From a virus: 22,073 nt of DNA. The DNA is taken from positions 1-22,073 of IMG/VR virus record IMGVR_UViG_3300013104_000078. One strand, 5' to 3'. Position numbers and translations under genes: made by a program. Positions within the stretch are counted from its first letter, which is position 1; every line of letters starts with the position of its first letter. The notes beneath the pieces were generated by a model, which saw nothing but the letters and a program-made list of their open reading frames with translations, ran no database searches and had not been told where the DNA came from. Shown here in pieces: positions 2,078 through 16,771 of the stretch.

Positions 2078-2637
2078 TCGGTGAGCTCCTTGTGCAGGCG
2101 TTCGACGCGGTAGGCGTTGCGAGCGGTGATGCGGTCGCCGAATTGCAGGTAGCGGCCGGTGTAGCCGAGGCGCTGGGCGAGGAACTGCTCGGTGTAGCCC
2201 TCGTCGAGCAGTTCGGCGATCCGCTGGTGGGTGCGGGCGGCCGAGATATAGGCGTGATCGGAGGCAACTGCCGGCGTGACGGCCAGGATCAGCCGTTCGG
2301 TGCGGGCGCGGATCTGCAGCTTTCGGCCCGTGCGGATCTCCGATAGCACGGTGTCGGCGATGTCGGTGGCGGCGCCGATCGCGCGCCGGCCGATGCCGCG
2401 GCGGCTCAGCTTGAGCATATGCTGGCGGGCCGCGGCAGCGGGCACGATGCCGTTCCAGTCGCCGGCCTTGCGGGCGCGCTGGCGCGCGCACTCGTAGGCG
2501 CTGTTGGCCTTGCGGCAGGCGTCGCAGCGGCAACCGGCCATGTAACGCAGGCGGTCGCCGTGCTGGCGGTTTGCTGCCAGTTCGGCGGTCGGGCGCAGAC
2601 CGCGTGCTGCGAGATCGGTGGCGACGGCGGGATTCAT
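2074..2637 (-). CDS. Phage protein with N-terminal Cys cluster and helical core, unknown function
   Basis: The 187-residue protein begins at the ATG at 2637, overlapping the preceding stop as ATGA. Residues 26-50 contain HGDRLRYMAGCRCDACRKAN, a C-x-C-x2-C cluster that could bind a metal. This is followed by a conserved-looking block GDWNGIVPAAAARQHMLKLSRRGIGRRAIGAATDI and SEIRTGRKLQIRARTERLILAV. The repeated small helices with GxGRR and IRTGR suggest DNA binding. Similar proteins occur in phages and actinobacterial elements (general recollection, not searched). The C-terminal helix pair (HQRIAELLDEGYTEQFLAQRLGY) looks like a helix-turn-helix. Confidence 0.82.
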   Translation of the reverse strand: MNPAVATDLAARGLRPTAELAANRQHGDRLRYMAGCRCDACRKANSAYECARQRARKAGDWNGIVPAAAARQHMLKLSRRGIGRRAIGAATDIADTVLSEIRTGRKLQIRARTERLILAVTPAVASDHAYISAARTHQRIAELLDEGYTEQFLAQRLGYTGRYLQFGDRITARNAYRVERLHKELTE

Positions 2638-3323
2638 TCGTCATGCTCCAGCGCGCGCTGGCTGGCGCCGGTGACGCCGCGGTGCAACTTGGCGGCTTTG
2701 CCAGCCTGGTGGCCAGCCCAGGCATCGTTGTCGCTGGTCTTGCCGCGCTTGGTCAGGTCGCGGCCGGAGCTGGTGCCGGCGTCGGGGTAGCGCACGCGCA
2801 GCACCTCGTCGATCGCCAGGCGCTTGGCGTCGGCAATTTCCGCATCGGGGAACAAGTGTGCGACGGCGTTGACCCATGCGATCGCGAACACCTCGCCGCG
2901 GGCATCGCGGTTGCCGCGTTTGCGCACGCGAGCGATGTGCTTGAGGCGGTCGGCATCCATCTGACGGCGCAGCACCGTGAACGCGAACGCCGCGATCTCG
3001 GCGGCGCCGTCGCAACCGTAGAAGCGGATCACCGTGGAGCCGCTGTTCCAGCATTTTTGCCGGCTGACGATCATTTGTGCGCCGAAGCCGTCCGCGGCGA
3101 GCCCGGCCAAGAACAACAGACTGCGCGCAGGTTCGGCACCACGGGCGCGGGTGTTGACCTCGGCCTCGTCGACATCCATCGCCTCGGCGTGGGTGATGCC
3201 GTGGGCGCGCATCATGGCCTGCGCCTGGCGCAGCGCGGCGGCGGCTTCGTTCGGGTTGGACGAGGCGGCGAGGCGCAGACAGGCCATCACTTTGCGGAGA
3301 ATGTGCTGGCGATCCATCGTCAT
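2634..3323 (-). CDS. DUF2786-like phage protein
   Basis: This 229-residue protein has an N-terminal section typical of DUF2786: ILRKVMACLRLAASSNPNEAAAALRQAQAMMRAHGITHAEAM (residues 8-49), a helical hairpin with the family's N-x-N/HEAA pattern. A second domain follows (about 65-190) with VIRFYGCDGAAEIAAFAFTVLRRQMDAD and AFAIAWVNAV-type helices, as in the partner domain usually found with DUF2786. The C-terminal 40 residues are polar and basic. Function is unknown. The family is common in phages and plasmids. The start is the ATG at 3323, overlapping the previous stop as ATGA; a second in-frame ATG lies 6 bases downstream. Confidence 0.88.
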   Translation of the reverse strand: MTMDRQHILRKVMACLRLAASSNPNEAAAALRQAQAMMRAHGITHAEAMDVDEAEVNTRARGAEPARSLLFLAGLAADGFGAQMIVSRQKCWNSGSTVIRFYGCDGAAEIAAFAFTVLRRQMDADRLKHIARVRKRGNRDARGEVFAIAWVNAVAHLFPDAEIADAKRLAIDEVLRVRYPDAGTSSGRDLTKRGKTSDNDAWAGHQAGKAAKLHRGVTGASQRALEHDE

Positions 3324-7819: not shown

Positions 7820-8244
7820 CAGCCTTTCTCCAACCGTTTGCGCAGATCACGTGCGCGCAGCCAGCGTTCCAGCTCGGCGAGCGCCAGTGCGGTGCCTTTC
7901 ACCAGCTGGCCGATGCGCGTGTCGATCCCCACGTCGCTGCGGAGCATGCCGTTATCGTAGTCATCGCGATGGATGCCTTCCCATGCGTTTTCGCCGATCA
8001 ACTCATGCATTGATTGCACAATGAGGCCGTACTCTGCGGTACATGTGCAGACGTCCTGATTGACGAAGGCAGGCACCAGGAAGAACGCCGCGGCCGAGGC
8101 GAGTTCTTCGCCACCGTGGCGATCATCATGGTCTTCGGTGTAACCGAGTTCGTCGATCTGGCGGCGACGTTCCTTCACCACCAGGCCAAGCGCCGCGCCA
8201 GCGAAGTAGCTGGTCATTTCGGGCGAGAGTGTGTTGTCGGCCAT
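7819..8244 (-). CDS. MazG-like / NTP-pyrophosphohydrolase-like phage protein (tentative)
   Basis: The 141-residue protein carries VVKERRRQIDELGYTEDHDDRHGGEELASAAAFFL (residues 24-58): a helix with ERxRQ, then a G-Y-T-x2-H-D-D-x-H block and a second helix. A later helix reads LVKGTALALAELERWLRAR. This pattern is familiar from small phage proteins annotated as MazG-like nucleotide pyrophosphatases, which hydrolyse NTPs or alarmones. The expected metal-binding EExxE pattern of true MazG is not obvious, so the activity is unproven. The start is the ATG at 8244 (TGATG with the ATPase stop, GGGAGG five bases before). GTG at 8247 is the alternative. Confidence 0.82.
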   Translation of the reverse strand: MADNTLSPEMTSYFAGAALGLVVKERRRQIDELGYTEDHDDRHGGEELASAAAFFLVPAFVNQDVCTCTAEYGLIVQSMHELIGENAWEGIHRDDYDNGMLRSDVGIDTRIGQLVKGTALALAELERWLRARDLRKRLEKG

Positions 8245-9497
8245 CACACCCTCCCGATCAGCTCGCCGCTGATCTTGTCCATGCCCAGTTCCACCGCCTG
8301 GTTCATCGCCTTGACGATCAGGTTCTGCACCACCAGCGGATACATCTGCGTGTCCACTTCGTTGGTGCCCTGGCGGCGGCGCGTGAGGCGGGCGCGGATG
8401 GCGTCGTAGGCGTCGCGCTCAAAGATGTCGTCGGGCTTGGCACCGACGCGCTTGAACTTCAGCGCCAGGTATTCCTCCAGGTTGCCGTTGAGCGGCTTGA
8501 GGCGTGCCTGCTCGATGCGGCGGATGACCTCGCGGATGTCCGGGTTGCGGCGCTCGTCGAGCAGGTTGGCCAGCTCGGGCTGGCCGACCAGCACGATGCC
8601 CAGCAGTTTCTTGAAGCCGTCTTCCAGCTCCCAGAACCGCTTGAGGTATTTCAGCGTGTATTTGTTGAGGTCGTGGGCCTCTTCGATCATCAGCACGTGC
8701 GACACACCGGTGCTGCTGCTGGCGGCCAGCAGGCGTTCCACCTGGCGCGCCTTGGCTTCCTTGCTGAGCTTGGGCACCTCGGTGGAGATATCCGCGATGA
8801 TGGCGTCGCAGATGTGGCTGGTGGTGAGCTCGCGCTTGTCGACGGTCTTGACGTTGATGATGACGATGGGCTCGTCATCGCGGCGGATGCGGTCGACCAG
8901 GTCGCGGCGCAGCGTGCTCTTGCCGCTGCCGGATTCGCCGATCACGGCGACGAAGCCGCCGTGCTTGGCGGCGTAGTACATGGACTCGCGCACGTAGCGT
9001 TGGTCCTTGCTGAGGTAGACATCCTGCGGGCCTTGCACGTCGTCGACGAAGGGATGACGGGCCAGGCGGAAGTGGTCGCGCGCAACGGGACTGAGCATTT
9101 CTGCCTCCGGGATTTCGATTTGGTCGTCGGCCGGTTTCGGCGCGACGGGGTTGGCATGGCGGAACACGCCGAGCGCGCTGGCGGGCGTCAGCTCGACGGT
9201 TTCACCTTCGGGTATCCACGCGGTGGCGATCTCGTCTTCGGGCACGTTGCGGCTGCGCAGGAAGTCCGCCACCTGGCGCTTGAGCGTGTCGGGGTGCACC
9301 GTGCGTGGCCACGCGTGGCGGGTGAGCAGCTGCGACAGCGTGCTGCTGGCCAGCGGGCTGCCACTGCGGCTGCCGGCCTCATAGACCATCGCGTGGCGCA
9401 GGTCACCCTGCGGGATGCCGTGGCGCAGCAGCAACGCGTGCAGCTGGTACGGCTTTTCGCTGCGCGTGCTGGTGATGGGTCGGCCCATGCGTGCCAT
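8244..9497 (-). CDS. MuB-like AAA+ ATPase, transposition target selector
   Basis: The 417-residue protein has an N-terminal DNA-binding region (about 15-95, SSTLSQLLTRHAWPRTVHPDTLKRQVADFL, helical and HTH-like). An AAA+ domain follows with Walker A GESGSGKST at 187-195, Walker B VLMIEEAHD at 268-276, and a sensor-like LVGQPEL at 303-309. This is the ExeA/TniB/MuB type. In Mu, MuB polymerises on target DNA, delivers it to the transposase and gives target immunity. It follows the transposase with two small genes between. The start is the ATG at 9497 with GGAG nine bases upstream; the gap to the preceding stop is 3 bp. Confidence 0.95.
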   Translation of the reverse strand: MARMGRPITSTRSEKPYQLHALLLRHGIPQGDLRHAMVYEAGSRSGSPLASSTLSQLLTRHAWPRTVHPDTLKRQVADFLRSRNVPEDEIATAWIPEGETVELTPASALGVFRHANPVAPKPADDQIEIPEAEMLSPVARDHFRLARHPFVDDVQGPQDVYLSKDQRYVRESMYYAAKHGGFVAVIGESGSGKSTLRRDLVDRIRRDDEPIVIINVKTVDKRELTTSHICDAIIADISTEVPKLSKEAKARQVERLLAASSSTGVSHVLMIEEAHDLNKYTLKYLKRFWELEDGFKKLLGIVLVGQPELANLLDERRNPDIREVIRRIEQARLKPLNGNLEEYLALKFKRVGAKPDDIFERDAYDAIRARLTRRRQGTNEVDTQMYPLVVQNLIVKAMNQAVELGMDKISGELIGRV

Positions 9498-10408: not shown

Positions 10409-12139
10409 TCAGCCGACGACAGACAGACGCGGGCGCTGCATGGGCTCGGGTGCATCGAGCCGCGCAGCAAGCGCATCGAGTTCGGCTTCGGGCACGCCGT
10501 CGGGAAACCACTCGCGGATGCGGGCGTTGTCGGCGGGCGTGAGTGAGCGCGGCAGGCGGGCGCGCATCTCGAACGCGGCCTGCACGTGCGAAAGCGGCTT
10601 GAGATCCACATGCATGTGATCGGGCACGTCCATGTCGGTACCGCGGCGCAGGATGTGGCTGGGCGCGGCGGCGGCGGCTTCGCGCATGTGCTTGAACGGG
10701 TCGATGGTGCCGTCGAACGCCAGCCGGCCCTTGTTGCGCGCGGCGGTGGCGTCCAGCGTGTCGCGCTCGCCGTAGGCCGCTTCGTTGAGATCCTTGCGCG
10801 CGGTGTCGACGACGGTGTCGGCCTTGCTGGCGTAGTTCTCGCCGAACACCGGCGCGGTGGTGAAGAAGCCGGCAGCGTCGGTGGCGATCGGATCGCACTC
10901 GATGTAGCGCGTGGCACCATCCTCGGCCTCGCCGATCACGAAGATGCTGGGCGCGCGGTACGGGTTGACCGCGACGGTCACCGTTTCGCCGACGCGCACG
11001 TTGGGCACGTCTTCCACCGAATACACGGCGGGGTCGAAGCCCTTGGCGGTGAACTGCACGGTGAGGTTGCCCTTGACCGTGCGCTGCACCGGCTTGCTGT
11101 GCATCAGCATCTGGCACAGATCCACCGGCGGGCACAGGCGCAGCTGGTCCTGGCGGATGGTTTGCCAGAGTGCATCGCGGGTGTGCTTGTGACGGCTGTG
11201 CTTGAAGGTGCCGTTGAACGCGCGCAGCCAGTGGTCCATTTCCACGTTGAGCTGTTCGACGCTGTCGATGCGGGCGAAGGTCAGCACGCCCTCGAACTTG
11301 CGCTCGATGATGTTGTGCACGCCCTCCACCTGGCCTTTCGCACGCGGGTTGCCCGGCTTGTGCGCCCAATGGCGGATCATCAGCGCGGTGAGCAGCGCGC
11401 CAATGGCGTGGCTCATGTTGGCGCTGCCGGCATCCCACACCAGCATCCACGGCACGCCGTGCATCACGTGGCCGTCGTTGCGGTGCATCGCCCACATCAG
11501 GAACTCGAACAGCGTGTGCTGGTCTTCGCCGGCCACGTTGTAGTAGCGGCACAGCACGTCGCCGGTGTAATGGTCGGTGCAGGCGTAGCGCATCACGCGC
11601 TGGTTGCTGACCTTCGCCAGGTCGCGCGGCTTGCGTTCGTTGAACTTGCGCTCGTCCATCACGCCGACGCGGCCGTTGCGCAGGTAGTACAGCACGCACA
11701 CCGACGCATCGAGCTGCCACACGTGGTTCGGGTGGTTGCTGCGCATGTTGACGTGCGGCTCCGGCCGGGCCAGCTGGCGCGGGTGGCAGTCGTGGCGGCG
11801 CATCAGGCGCAGCATGGTTTCCGGCGAAACACGCTCGGTGATCAGGCCGTTGGACAGCGCCATGTCGATCGCGTCGCCCACCGGCAGCAGCTCCTTGCCG
11901 GTCTGCCGCTGGCTGGCGCGCAGGATGCCGGCGACGGCTTTCACCTCGGCCTCGCTGACGCGGCTGTCGCCCTTGTCGGCACGCAGCTTGCGGCCGCTGC
12001 TCCAGCCCACGCGGCGCAGGCGGTCATACAGGGTCGGCTTGCTCACGCCGAGCCAGCGCATGGCCTCGTCGATCAGTGACCCGCGCTCGCCGTGACCAGC
12101 CGATTGCAGCCGGCCGGCCACGTTGCGCAGGTAATCCAT
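10409..12139 (-). CDS. tnpA: MuA-type DDE transposase
   Basis: The 576-residue protein (from the ATG at 12139) catalyses strand transfer of phage ends during integration and replicative transposition. An N-terminal HTH reads MRWLGVSKPTLYDRLRRVG (about 27-46). The integrase-core (rve) domain has catalytic D144 (HVWQLDAS), D236 (WMLVWDAGSAN) and E272 (KGQVEGVHN), and the last two are 35 residues apart, the classical D-D-35-E layout. A Mu-type C-terminal beta domain follows (KGFDPAVYSVEDVPNVRVGETVTVAVNPY), then an acidic tail that in Mu contacts the ATPase. The 12139 ATG has GGGGGAG nine bases upstream. An ATG at 12163 gives eight more residues but lacks a good RBS. Confidence 0.96.
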   Translation of the reverse strand: MDYLRNVAGRLQSAGHGERGSLIDEAMRWLGVSKPTLYDRLRRVGWSSGRKLRADKGDSRVSEAEVKAVAGILRASQRQTGKELLPVGDAIDMALSNGLITERVSPETMLRLMRRHDCHPRQLARPEPHVNMRSNHPNHVWQLDASVCVLYYLRNGRVGVMDERKFNERKPRDLAKVSNQRVMRYACTDHYTGDVLCRYYNVAGEDQHTLFEFLMWAMHRNDGHVMHGVPWMLVWDAGSANMSHAIGALLTALMIRHWAHKPGNPRAKGQVEGVHNIIERKFEGVLTFARIDSVEQLNVEMDHWLRAFNGTFKHSRHKHTRDALWQTIRQDQLRLCPPVDLCQMLMHSKPVQRTVKGNLTVQFTAKGFDPAVYSVEDVPNVRVGETVTVAVNPYRAPSIFVIGEAEDGATRYIECDPIATDAAGFFTTAPVFGENYASKADTVVDTARKDLNEAAYGERDTLDATAARNKGRLAFDGTIDPFKHMREAAAAAPSHILRRGTDMDVPDHMHVDLKPLSHVQAAFEMRARLPRSLTPADNARIREWFPDGVPEAELDALAARLDAPEPMQRPRLSVVG

Positions 12140-12165
12140 TTGGGCAAGCTCCCCCTGGTGCATGG

Positions 12166-14440: not shown

Positions 14441-14767
14441 TCAGCCTGCCGCCGCGCGGTGCGCGTCGGTGGGTTGTGTGGTGGAAAGCGCGCGACGACG
14501 GCGAGGCTTGGCGTTGGGGCCATGCCATTGCGGCCAGAGTTCGGCGAGTGGACGTCGCGTGATGGCGGCGATTCGCAACTCAATCCGTTTGCTGCGTCCG
14601 CGGCCGTTGATGACCATGCTCACTGCGCTGCGGCTGCGATCGAGTTCGAGGGCCAGGTCTGCCTGCGTGTAATTGCTGCAGGCCAGCGCGTACTTGATTC
14701 GCGCCGCATGTTCCTGGACGCGAACCTCGTCATCCGAGTGTTTTTGCGCGGGTGCCGACGATTGCAT
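14441..14767 (-). CDS. Ner-like helix-turn-helix regulator, leftward
   Basis: The 108-residue protein starts at the ATG at 14767 with AGAGGA five to six bases upstream. Residues 23-80 form a Ner-type domain (RIKYALACSNYTQADLALELDRSRSAVSMVINGRGRSKRIELRIAAITRRPLAELWPQW). Ner represses both the early and repressor promoters in Mu. It is a paralogue of the rightward regulator at 14879: both share AVSMVINGRGRS and a WP-(Q/H)-W end. A 26-bp DNA stretch is identical between the two genes in opposite orientation. It is transcribed away from the operator gap, in the direction of the early operon. Confidence 0.86.
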   Translation of the reverse strand: MQSSAPAQKHSDDEVRVQEHAARIKYALACSNYTQADLALELDRSRSAVSMVINGRGRSKRIELRIAAITRRPLAELWPQWHGPNAKPRRRRALSTTQPTDAHRAAAG

Positions 14768-14994
14768 GGGGTTCCTCTGACCAATGCGCGAACGTTCGCG
14801 CATAACTTGTTCAATTCACAAGTTCATTGAACATGTTCAACAAGAGGATGTCAAGCATTTCCGAATCGGGCGGGCGCCATGCATCCAGCTGAGATCCAGG
14901 CCGCCCTGAAATTGCAGGGCTATAGCCAGTCCCACATCGCCACCATGTGCGGTGTGAGGCCGTCTACCGTGAGCATGGTCATCAACGGCCGCGG
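14598..14994. repeat. 26-bp perfect inverted repeat between the two regulator genes
   Basis: Positions 14598-14623 are the exact reverse complement of 14969-14994. Both encode VSMVINGRGR, the recognition helix region of the two Ner-like proteins, so the repeat reflects homologous genes in opposite orientation. It flanks the operator gap, and recombination across it would invert the gap and exchange gene ends. Confidence 0.9.
14784..14840. promoter_or_regulatory. Switch operator region between the divergent regulators
   Basis: The gap contains a perfect 20-bp palindrome (14784-14803, ATGCGCGAACGTTCGCGCAT) next to AT-rich DNA with an imperfect dyad ACTTGT-TCAATTC-ACAAGT (14805-14823) and a perfect 14-bp palindrome TTGAACATGTTCAA (14827-14840). 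GTTCAA or GTTCAT occurs at about 14809, 14822 and 14835, 13 bp apart, which suggests a row of half-sites for a helix-turn-helix protein. Promoter boxes for either direction are not clear, though TTGAAC could be a -35 box on either strand. Two unlike palindromes suggest two binding proteins. Confidence 0.72.
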
Positions 14995-15319
14995 CCGTAG
15001 TCGGCCGATCGAGGAGAAGATCAGCGAGGTGCTGCGGCTGTCGTTGAGTCGCCTGTGGCCGCATTGGTACGACGATTCGAATGCACAGCCGCCCAAGGCG
15101 GGCGTTCGCGAAGAGCCGGTTCTATCCGCCGAGGAATTGAGGCTGCTTGCTATGTACCGAGCGCTGTCGAACGCTCGAAAGCTGCAATTCCGGGACATGT
15201 TGGAATTGCTTGGCCGCAGCGAACCTCCGCGCCAGCCTGGCGTCCATGCCGATCGTGGAAGCGTCGCCGCTGGAGGGGACGTCAACTACGGTGCGGGCAG
15301 CGGTCGGCGGAAGAAATAA
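14879..15319 (+). CDS. Ner-like helix-turn-helix regulator (candidate repressor) with a C-terminal motif tail
   Basis: The 146-residue protein has an N-terminal DNA-binding domain (residues 3-63, with HTH at about 16-37: SQSHIATMCGVRPSTVSMVINGRGRSR) and a middle helical region (LSAEELRLLAMYRALSNARKLQFRDMLELLGR, 82-113). It is probably the lysogenic repressor, as it is transcribed opposite to the early operon. After residue 121 comes a tail VHADRGSVAAGGDVNY ending in basic residues. Nearly the same motif begins the membrane protein at 15808. The ATG at 14879 is used; an upstream ATG at 14848 is out of frame. Confidence 0.88.
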   Translation: MHPAEIQAALKLQGYSQSHIATMCGVRPSTVSMVINGRGRSRPIEEKISEVLRLSLSRLWPHWYDDSNAQPPKAGVREEPVLSAEELRLLAMYRALSNARKLQFRDMLELLGRSEPPRQPGVHADRGSVAAGGDVNYGAGSGRRKK

Positions 15320-15410
15320 CGGCCGACCCTTACGGCTTTTGTAGGCGAGCGCCCACAGAGAATGCAGACGCAGCCGGCACAGAATGGTGTTCTGAATACA
15401 GGGGCGCGCG

Positions 15411-15773
15411 ATGAAGAGACTGTGGGTTTTCCTTGCAGGTCTGGTGGTCGTTGTTGGCAGCGTTGTCGGATATGCCATACGCACCAGCCATGCCGCTGAC
15501 GTCGTCGACGGTCTTCGGCATTGGCCGGCCTACCACGACTATCAGCAGATGCTGCGCAGCACGCTGGCGGATCCTGATTCGGCCAGGTTCAGCGGACTCT
15601 ATTTCCGCCATGCCGATGGCCGCGACTACATGTGCGGCATGGTGAATGCGCGCAACCGTTCCGGTGGTTACAACGGCACCCAGCCTTTCTATGTCGCGCC
15701 TGGGTCGGCGTTGATCTTCGATGTCGACGACGCTGGGTCGGCTTATTCGATAGAGCGCATCTGCACCAGGTAA
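15411..15773 (+). CDS. Secreted or membrane-anchored protein of unknown function
   Basis: The 120-residue protein has an N-terminal hydrophobic segment (residues 5-22) followed by SHAAD at 26-30, which fits signal peptidase cleavage or a single anchor. The exported part contains LRSTLADPDSARFSGLYFRHADGRDYMCGMVNARNRSGGYNG (about 48-89). This DPDSA(Q/R)F ... CGxVNAKN...GGYxG pattern is familiar from small envelope proteins in phages and bacteria without known function. The gene lies 91 bp after the regulator gene and could be expressed from the prophage (superinfection exclusion or another lysogenic trait), but that is inference. Confidence 0.82.
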   Translation: MKRLWVFLAGLVVVVGSVVGYAIRTSHAADVVDGLRHWPAYHDYQQMLRSTLADPDSARFSGLYFRHADGRDYMCGMVNARNRSGGYNGTQPFYVAPGSALIFDVDDAGSAYSIERICTR

Positions 15774-15807
15774 GCAAGTTCCAACGGGCCACGCCACAGG
15801 GGGCGTC

Positions 15808-16314
15808 ATGCAAGAATTCCACCACAGTGCGGTCCACGCGGACCGCAGGAGTCTCGCCGCTGGGCGTGACATCAACCTCTCCATCAGCCTCAACGAATAC
15901 CGCGACTTGCTCGCGCATCGTGCCAACGACCCACATGCCTTGACGTGCCAATGGTGCAAGCTTGGCGGCCAGGCTCCCGATCTGGATGAGTGCATCGCCT
16001 GCGGTCATGACATCGGCGCCGAGCGCCGTGCCCGCGAAGCGATGCAGGCGCGCGAGTTGCGCGTGCGTCGCGCGATGGGCGATATCCGCCACGTCGTCTG
16101 CTACCTCGGCGCCATGCTGCTGGTGACGGCGTTCCTCGGCTGGTACCACAATGCCGATGACAGCGTGGCCGGCCTCATCATCGGCTTCATGGTCTTGTCG
16201 GTGGTGGCGGGTGAACTGCTGGTGCACGCCTGGATCAACGTCGAGGTATGGTTGATCTACGACCTGCCGCGGCTGATGCGCCGCCACGGGCTGGGCTGGC
16301 TGGTGGGGGAATGA
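15808..16314 (+). CDS. Zinc-ribbon, two-helix membrane protein with a motif shared with the regulator
   Basis: The 168-residue protein starts at the ATG at 15808 with AGGGGG just upstream. Residues 9-24 (VHADRRSLAAGRDINL) match the tail of the regulator at 14879. Cys47, Cys50, Cys62 and Cys65 form a zinc-ribbon-like pair (CQWC...CIAC). Two membrane segments follow (about 96-113 and 119-139: VVCYLGAMLLVTAFLGW, AGLIIGFMVLSVVAGELLV) and an amphipathic basic C-terminus (LIYDLPRLMRRHG). It is therefore an inner-membrane protein with a cytoplasmic or periplasmic metal site. The role is unknown. It is probably co-transcribed with the 15411 gene. Confidence 0.8.
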   Translation: MQEFHHSAVHADRRSLAAGRDINLSISLNEYRDLLAHRANDPHALTCQWCKLGGQAPDLDECIACGHDIGAERRAREAMQARELRVRRAMGDIRHVVCYLGAMLLVTAFLGWYHNADDSVAGLIIGFMVLSVVAGELLVHAWINVEVWLIYDLPRLMRRHGLGWLVGE

Positions 16315-16317
16315 CTA

Positions 16318-16441
16318 TGCGCGGGACGCTGCGCAGCATCGTCCGCCGATTGGGGTAATATCCGGCTGTCCATTGCCGGCGTTGCGGTAAATAACACCGG
16401 TTAAAAGACCCCTCGCATCCTCATGCGGCACTTTGTGCCGC
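16318..16441 (+). other. Gap before the lysis cassette; no gene seen
   Basis: The 127-bp stretch starts with an imperfect palindrome (TGCGCG at 16318-16323, CTGCGCA at 16329-16335) which weakly resembles the switch palindrome. A TAATAT hexamer lies at 16355-16360, but no good -35 box is seen 16-18 bp upstream, and another AT-rich patch lies around 16388-16405. A late promoter for the lysis genes, driven by Mor, is expected somewhere here, but its sequence cannot be identified by eye. Confidence 0.4.
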
Positions 16442-16444
16442 ATG
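16422..16444 (+). promoter_or_regulatory. Hairpin covering the holin-like gene start codon
   Basis: Perfect inverted repeat CATGCGGCAC (16422-16431), loop TTT, GTGCCGCATG (16435-16444). The ATG start of the holin-like gene (16442-16444) lies inside the 3' arm, so in mRNA the start would be sequestered. No T tract follows, which argues against a Rho-independent terminator and for translational control or a DNA-binding site. Confidence 0.7.
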
Positions 16445-16771
16445 ACCTCCCGAACGATCCTCCAGCGTTTCCAGGCCCGCATCCACGCGGCTCTTCCCGC
16501 CTTGCGCGACAAGCTGCGGGCGACGCCGCTGCTGTTGCTGGGCGCGATCACCTTCGGCGTGGTGCTGACGATGAACCCGGCGAAGGTCGGGCTGCTCATC
16601 TGGGGCGCCTCGCGCATCGGCCTGTATGCCTACCTGGGCTACTGGGTCGACCGCATCATCTTTCCGTATGCCCGCCCGCACGTGCTGACCGGCATTGCCG
16701 AGGGCACGGCGTGGAAGCGTCGCGCGCTGATCGTGTCGGCGGCGCTGCTGGCCGGGGCGCTGCTGCCATGA
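16442..16771 (+). CDS. Putative holin-like membrane protein
   Basis: The 109-residue protein has a basic amphipathic N-terminus followed by three hydrophobic segments (about 29-45 TPLLLLGAITFGVVLTM, 48-66 KVGLLIWGASRIGLYAYL, 92-108 ALIVSAALLAGALLP), typical of a class I-like holin. Its place directly before the transglycosylase with an ATGA overlap supports the role: forming inner-membrane lesions that release the endolysin and time lysis. Start at the ATG at 16442 (inside the hairpin). The TTG at 16433 would be an unlikely alternative. Confidence 0.82.
   Translation: MTSRTILQRFQARIHAALPALRDKLRATPLLLLGAITFGVVLTMNPAKVGLLIWGASRIGLYAYLGYWVDRIIFPYARPHVLTGIAEGTAWKRRALIVSAALLAGALLP

Follow-up and report, generated by a model that had tools for sequence, protein, structure and literature searches.

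Bacterial amyloid signaling sequences, described as BASS 1-10 (Dyrka et al. 2020; PMC7889193, PMC8086366), occur as a common terminal motif on adjacent proteins, one of which contains a transmembrane (TM) helix (PMC7889193). In amyloid signaling of this kind, neighboring genes encode an NLR and an effector that acts at the membrane, both with the same motif, and a review of the field has asked whether the signaling amyloids of fungi and bacteria also act in NLR-independent pathways (PMC7889193). Here, we describe a gene pair that is, by analogy, a candidate for such an NLR-independent signaling amyloid: some B3-like phages encode a repressor that bears a short motif, in most cases in its disordered C-terminal tail, next to a putatively membrane-anchored protein that starts with a matching motif. 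The layout of B3-like regulatory regions has been described (PMC9936078), and lysogens of the related phage Fc02 cotranscribe the repressor with the accessory gene that follows it (PMC9936078).

Results

A motif common to a phage repressor and a nearby membrane protein

We analyzed a 22 kb viral fragment (hereafter the window, i.e., the whole stretch of 22,073 nucleotides), which is part of a B3-like transposable phage. It encodes a MuA-type transposase (10409-12163; phrog_310, 2.8e-88) and a transposition ATPase (8244-9497; phrog_296, 3.1e-61), and its gene layout is that of B3, with a divergent helix-turn-helix (HTH) pair, 14441-14803 (-) and 14879 (+), followed by holin and endolysin. The transposase is ~36% identical to that of B3, and the nearest named phages by this protein, at 36-41% identity, are a Microcystis phage, enterobacterial phages, and Pseudomonas B3-type phages. 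The features of the repressor-holin cassette are as follows:

14441..14803, - strand: divergent Ner-like HTH protein, 120 aa, no motif (phrog_769/1468; B3-like regulatory layout, PMC9936078)
14879..15319, + strand: HTH regulator at the repressor position, 146 aa (Pfam HTH_35, 1.8e-8; phrog_769 "transcriptional repressor", 1.4e-10)
15242..15289, + strand: regulator tail motif, class A (same position in relatives L007, L017, and L021)
15411..15773, + strand: intervening 120-aa protein with N-terminal TM/signal anchor, no motif (phrog_2320, 1.6e-14; TM-like 5-23)
15808..16314, + strand: membrane partner, 168 aa, with disordered head, zinc ribbon, and two-TM helical hairpin (AlphaFold2, hydropathy)
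15832..15879, + strand: membrane-protein head motif, class A (in the family, conservation is highest here and in the zinc ribbon)
15946..16002, + strand: zinc ribbon of the membrane partner, C47-x2-C50 ... C62-x2-C65 (direct reading)
16084..16221, + strand: two hydrophobic segments of the membrane partner, residues 93-111 and 120-138 (Kyte-Doolittle scan)
16433..16771, + strand: holin gene, closing the cassette around the motif pair (Pfam Holin_2-3, 4.7e-10)

The regulator, whose best PHROG is phrog_769 ("transcriptional repressor"), consists of an HTH domain (residues 1-67), a helical hairpin (84-113), and a disordered tail (114-146) that ends in ...PGVHADRGSVAAGGDVNYGAGSGRRKK; AlphaFold2 assigned a pLDDT above 90 to residues 1-60 and below 50 to the tail, within which the motif lies. 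A first-pass annotation of the window had called this protein a Ner-like regulator. The HTH regulator stands, but the Ner position belongs to the divergent gene 14441-14803 (-): because the (+) gene of the divergent pair in phage B3 encodes the repressor, with an annotated similarity to P22 c2, the tailed regulator occupies the repressor position, and the protein on the (-) strand is the opposite arm of the lysis-lysogeny switch. The membrane partner begins with MQEFHHSAVHADRRSLAAGRDINL, its residues 1-26 have a pLDDT below 50 with the motif inside, and its helices span residues 69-116 and 120-159. Both of its CxxC pairs are also present in L021 6147-6722 and in L017, while L021 6722-7180 has the second pair only. 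The partner (15808-16314) matched no Pfam, PHROG, NCBIfam, or PADLOC family, and the intervening protein (15411-15773) gave no alignment to the regulator or the partner above shuffles.

Direct reading of the window places the tail motif, VHADRGSVAAGGDVNY, at regulator residues 122-137 (15242-15289) and the head motif, VHADRRSLAAGRDINL, at residues 9-24 of the membrane protein (15832-15879). The two are identical at 11 of 16 residues (BLASTP, E = 1e-4 for one single comparison; the initial count had been 12), and two further positions are conservative (V/L and V/I). Their local alignment score of 57 was reached by none of 2000 shuffles (best 53), the other gene pairs of the window cassette scored at background, and a degenerate DNA pattern of the motif had just two matches in the window and none in 100 shuffles. 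Outside the motif, BLASTP and shuffled alignments revealed no relatedness between the remainders of the two proteins, in agreement with the first reading of them as otherwise unrelated.

The initial reading had also held that amino acids, not DNA, are conserved, and had listed six identical residues with different codons, which stands as 6 of 11. The same codons are used at the other 5 where 6.4 are expected from the codon usage of the window, so that there is no extra DNA conservation in this pair. Over nine matched motif pairs, taken from six phages and prophages and from phages B3 and Ps59, identity by codon position was 97/167, 117/167, and 69/167; third positions are the least conserved, and therefore the amino acids are what is kept. 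The match between the regulator tail and the membrane-protein head is real and beyond chance, as a chance or DNA-level origin is ruled out by the shuffles, the codon-position pattern, and the recurrence described below. We also considered the VAAG string in the motif, which we take to recall a LexA-type self-cleavage site; such cleavage was rejected, as class C of the motif (see below) lacks Ala-Gly and no protease domain is present.

The tail/head pair recurs in related phages and prophages

The pair recurs in the window, L017/L053, L021, L117, L118, L119, phages B3 and Ps59, and G947, a set that covers Lysobacterales phages and prophages as well as Pseudomonas phage B3. The classes match, and the motifs lie mostly at the ends of neighboring genes; such recurrence in other phages was the check that the first-pass annotation had proposed. 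Searching IMG/VR with the pattern [RG]S[VL]AAG[GR]D[VI]N returned five loci, namely one long unrelated protein, the tails of three regulators, two of which belong to a single phage, and the head of one relative of the window's membrane protein; a strict DNA pattern of the window's motif form had no match in IMG/VR. Relatives of the window's membrane partner were found in L017 and L021. When the membrane protein was used as a single query sequence, no relative turned up among phages, plasmids, or viral contigs. The pair is complete in L017/L020 (tail VHAVGGSVAAGGDVNI, head IVANRHSVAAGRDINL), and a genome scan located the L017 pair also as prophage L053 in a Lysobacterales MAG, the other matches of that scan being unrelated proteins and very long proteins in which the motif resembles a filamentous-haemagglutinin repeat rung. 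In L021, one tail (VIAVGGSMAAGGDVNF) is accompanied by two tandem partners with heads IVADRHSVAAGHDVNV and TVADRRSVAAGGDVNV.

A first regulator profile scan of genome contigs found no relative. Running a regulator profile on 399 genomes of the Lysobacterales order and then reading the cassettes yielded three more pairs with a different wording of the motif: L117 (regulator RGDSNVVAGRDQVGVQ, head of a two-TM protein VVGRDNVVAGRDVIQL), L118 (regulator SGDRNVVAGRDQVGI, zinc-ribbon two-TM head VRGQHNSVAGRDYTHI), and L119 (tail STGADAKIAGRDMVGVQIN, zinc-ribbon two-TM head SSGAHARIALRDYIAHQFN). In the L117 and L118 regulators, the motif is internal and not terminal. The profile of the window-type partner had a sole match in the 399 Lysobacterales genomes, in the genome that holds L053. 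Pseudomonas phage B3 carries the pair at the end of ORF18 (ISVTGDGNRTAGRDFHERKE) and the start of ORF20 (NIEVTGSNNIVAGRDFIENHL), and phage Ps59 has a tail/head pair as well. In G947, the motif takes yet another, third form (tail FEEVGQYIHGSVNQTGLTLNV; heads FHGGVGQVAEGDINNYG and similar). Although the partners of the B3/Ps59 type and of the window type have diverged, the motif ranks among their best-conserved stretches.

Absence was likewise mostly joint. Phages Fc22, JBD25, U3, Ps60, and U11 have neither tail nor partner, and the B3 ORF20 homologs in G806, G1159, and G779 have no head, just as their repressors have no tail. No head without a tail was seen in any repressor-holin cassette examined, and a tail without a findable partner was seen in four phages, L007, L003 (a short contig), L004, and Komp_PAO1_1. 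A hidden second partner in L007 and L004 was considered and rejected, the candidate motif strings elsewhere in these contigs being not motif-like in context. The motif matched none of the named families tested, as initially stated, nor did the solved structures searched or a literature text search for motif strings give a match.

Several cassettes displayed further features. A hairpin lies over the start of the holin gene in the window (16421-16445, TCATGCGGCAC TTT GTGCCGCATGA), L021 (8020-8044), and L003 (6662-6690), and also in L007, L017, L004, L117, and L118, with arms that vary between phages and stay largely complementary; it may be a gate on holin translation or an activator site. The L021 cassette also encodes a SLATT-like two-TM protein (L021:7393-7941; PADLOC "2TM effector" 0.006, phrog_11791 2e-23). 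A two-gene module of a DUF6731-like protein and a two-TM phrog_8552 protein recurs in repressor-holin cassettes (L118:6665-7983, L119:5127-6409), and L117:5951-7514 holds a similar gene pair. The Ps59 partner (L130:2501-3097) has a second, internal motif-like stretch, ISVTVGGDQAGNISLGGTQINIQ, besides its head. In one G947 cassette (L151:2246-4059), each of three membrane proteins starts with the class C motif, suggesting that a single repressor may have more than one partner. Related strings were also encountered in bacterial proteins: L034:1515-3860, from Nitrosospira, looks like a TIR-TM-motif-TPR protein with the motif doubled; L082:284-832, apparently a Chloroflexaceae protein, has an N-terminal repeat of GRDSVAAGRDSVAAGRDIN, a related motif string; and L040:195-419 looks like a 74-aa TM protein with a motif-related string at its C-terminus.

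The head class follows the tail class

The wording of the head follows that of the tail. Homologs in the regulator family of the window carry the wording SVAAGGDVN or NVVAGRD, with the head of the neighbor following, and class B tails go with class B heads as class C tails go with class C heads. The bodies behind the heads do not set the class. Flk-like bodies (identified by the NCBIfam Flk model, 5.5e-16 for the G947 copy) have a head of class B in L158 and L159 and of class C in L160, L165, L166, L168, L172, and L174, in each case the class of their own repressor, while the Flk-like body of L164, whose repressor is tail-less, has neither a class B nor a class C head. The class thus varies on one and the same type of body with the repressor encoded alongside, so that the head goes with the tail and not with the body. 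Conversely, class B heads sit on several bodies, i.e., the zinc-ribbon two-TM type (L157, L175, L118), the Flk-like type, and the B3 ORF20 type. TM segments are predicted for the window partner and most other partners; for the L158, L159, and L165 partners, the TM signal was below the threshold used, though their C-terminal hydrophobic end aligns. Across eight lineages, matched pairs outscored mismatched ones (permutation p = 1.7e-4; 1 in 120 when one lineage per class is taken), and within the window/L017/L021 clade there was no phage-specific pairing preference (permutation p = 0.5).

An unselected sample of Pseudomonas prophages gave the same picture. Selection was by transposase alone, taking every B3-type transposase in 399 Pseudomonas genomes (23 genomes); of 20 cassettes fetched, one lacked a repressor and two came from one and the same prophage, leaving 18 distinct cassettes. 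The G806, G779, G947, and G1159 cassettes, read earlier, are not among these 18. Ten of the 18 repressors have a tail (4 class B, 6 class C). The gene next to the repressor encodes a matching head for all 10 tailed repressors (shuffle p <= 0.0015 each) and for 0 of the 8 tail-less ones (p >= 0.5). The joint presence of tail and head corresponds to a Fisher p = 2.3e-5 with kinship ignored, and the cross-table of tails against heads in this set splits cleanly by class (permutation p = 7e-4), both values being optimistic because related prophages were treated as independent. The classes were named once the data had been seen, and the per-locus shuffle tests are independent of them. In the Pseudomonas set, the partner is encoded immediately behind the repressor, and its gene often starts no more than a few bases after the repressor stop. 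A common, neutral tail that lacks a partner, the case named in the first-pass annotation as speaking against its proposal, was not seen in this sample.

The partners of tail-less repressors have an internal, beta-rich class D element (such as IKIKGNRGHINLGHQTF or SITVGGNNSGNISLGGTQI) in place of the head (L161, L162, L164, L167, L171, L173, L144, L145, and L150). L145 additionally contains an adjacent pair that involves no repressor, a small TM protein (2272-2469) ending in GGDGHQAGRDLTVNVKK and a 278-aa protein (2469-3305) starting with DVAVAAQAGRDVTVNYG.

Discussion

We propose that the pair forms a heterotypic assembly module of B3-like transposable phages, in which the repressor would recruit or nucleate its membrane partner by like-on-like motif stacking, a reading to which we give an even chance. 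The lysogeny repressor would present the short motif in a disordered region, usually the C-terminal tail, and a coexpressed, membrane-anchored partner (two-TM with or without zinc ribbon, or Flk-like with a C-terminal TM) would present the matching motif in a disordered N-terminal head. Like-on-like assembly is the best explanation because two disordered ends, on a DNA-binding repressor and a membrane-anchored partner, bear the same protein-conserved motif and are jointly present or absent. The two motifs would most likely stack as beta-arches, as in amyloid signaling motifs, and bring or nucleate the partner at the membrane. Both proteins are expected to be made in the lysogen, because of the cotranscription in Fc02 and the gap of a few bases in the Pseudomonas loci. 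The likeliest purpose would be to couple the state of the prophage to a membrane effector, for example, for superinfection exclusion or abortive lysogen death, and we favor an effector that protects or sacrifices the lysogen.

Heterotypic assembly had been put forward in the first-pass annotation. Its foundations hold, namely a motif common to adjacent unrelated proteins, conservation at the amino acid level, recurrence, class matching, disordered termini, and predicted membrane anchoring of the partners; from these sequence patterns, we infer heterotypic binding as the best reading of the matched motifs. A cross-beta (amyloid-like) geometry, the direction of signaling, and the function of the pair are likewise inferred. 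A broader form of the proposal would be NLR-free, amyloid-type signaling in which temperate phages wire their lysogeny repressor to membrane effectors by interchangeable prion-like motif pairs, with the classes preventing cross-talk between coresident prophages. We put this forward tentatively, as a possibility somewhat short of probable.

The same pairing evidence, i.e., joint presence or absence and class matching, would also fit sequestration, where the membrane partner holds part of the repressor at the membrane and so tunes or triggers induction, being a regulator of the switch and not an effector. The location of the partner gene directly after the repressor gene in the Pseudomonas set, often by a few bases, would suit such a tether. 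We nevertheless consider it unlikely, since a pure tether needs no such variety of partner bodies as the zinc-ribbon two-TM, Flk-like, and B3 ORF20-like types, and many B3-like phages do without any partner.

Type II antitoxins are generally HTH DNA-binding proteins whose disordered C-terminal tail binds the product of the next gene, and a tailed repressor with a next-gene partner fits this plan. The partner might then be a membrane toxin, held in check by a repressor tail that covers its head and set free upon loss of the repressor; B3 ORF18 indeed displays weak scores against antitoxin HTH families, e.g., couple_hipB and MqsA. To our knowledge, antitoxin tails are no copies of the N-terminus of the toxin, whereas tail and head are alike here, suggesting like-on-like stacking, and tails without partners exist; we regard a masked toxin as quite improbable. 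Phages that have a tail only would be accommodated if both proteins docked to the same host protein, such as a protease adaptor or a chaperone, and did not bind each other. A single host reader would not be expected to produce class matching within each phage among hosts of one genus, and we find this explanation very doubtful. Finally, descent of tail and following gene as one DNA cassette, with a functionless motif left by an old duplication, would agree with their moving together at close distance and with the dominance of related phages in each class, but is highly improbable given that identity is lowest at third codon positions, that the motif is among the best-conserved parts of diverged partners (B3/Ps59 and window type), that presence and absence are joint, and that Flk-like bodies change their head class.

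If assembly of the repressor with a membrane partner is true, the lysogeny switch would be connected to the cell membrane in a new way, and a set of unannotated accessory genes that follow the repressor in B3-like phages would gain a function. Our literature searches, which covered few subscription papers, returned no report of a repressor/membrane-protein motif pair. The question of NLR-independent signaling becomes directly testable because the pair exists in the long-studied Pseudomonas laboratory phage B3.

Among known systems, filamentous haemagglutinin-type beta-solenoid repeats resemble class A in that one rung reads much like it (G-S-V-A-A-G-x-D-[VI]-N), but the motif here occurs in single copy and in small proteins, and six termini gave no Pfam match to the repeat at E up to 10. 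Type II toxin-antitoxin loci are similar in that an HTH protein with a disordered tail is encoded directly before its partner, and different in that tail and head are here alike rather than complementary, the partner is a membrane protein, and the regulator is a phage repressor. The B3-like superinfection-exclusion genes olg1 and gene 10, one of which is expressed in the lysogen, are also accessory genes of the regulatory region in the same phage group, but unlike the pair, they map upstream of the repressor and to the ner operon, with no motif link to the repressor reported (PMC9936078). With RHIM and the fungal PP motif, a group homologous to BASS3, the pair has in common a short motif of ~20 residues, which RHIM/PP use for heterotypic assembly in pathways whose endpoint is the membrane; unlike these, there is no significant match to the BASS3 representative and no kinase, NLR, or HeLo-type domain here.

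The likeness to BASS comprises adjacent genes, a short like-on-like motif in the termini of two otherwise unrelated proteins, one partner with a (here predicted) TM helix, many motif families, and varied bodies. The differences are that a phage HTH repressor (Pfam/PHROGs) takes the place of the NLR (a STAND NTPase), and that the motif sits on the C-terminal end of the repressor and the N-terminal end of the membrane protein. In 34 shuffle tests against one BASS3 and one archaeal peptide (PMC8086366), the best p was 0.005, not significant after correction, a weak test because these published peptides also fail to match one another. Since there is no NLR and no significant match to the BASS3 or archaeal peptide, we do not file the pair under BASS; it would work like an amyloid signaling pair and resembles that group in its plan. 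This common plan suggests that repressor and membrane protein may be connected in the way in which amyloid motifs link immune receptors to their effectors.
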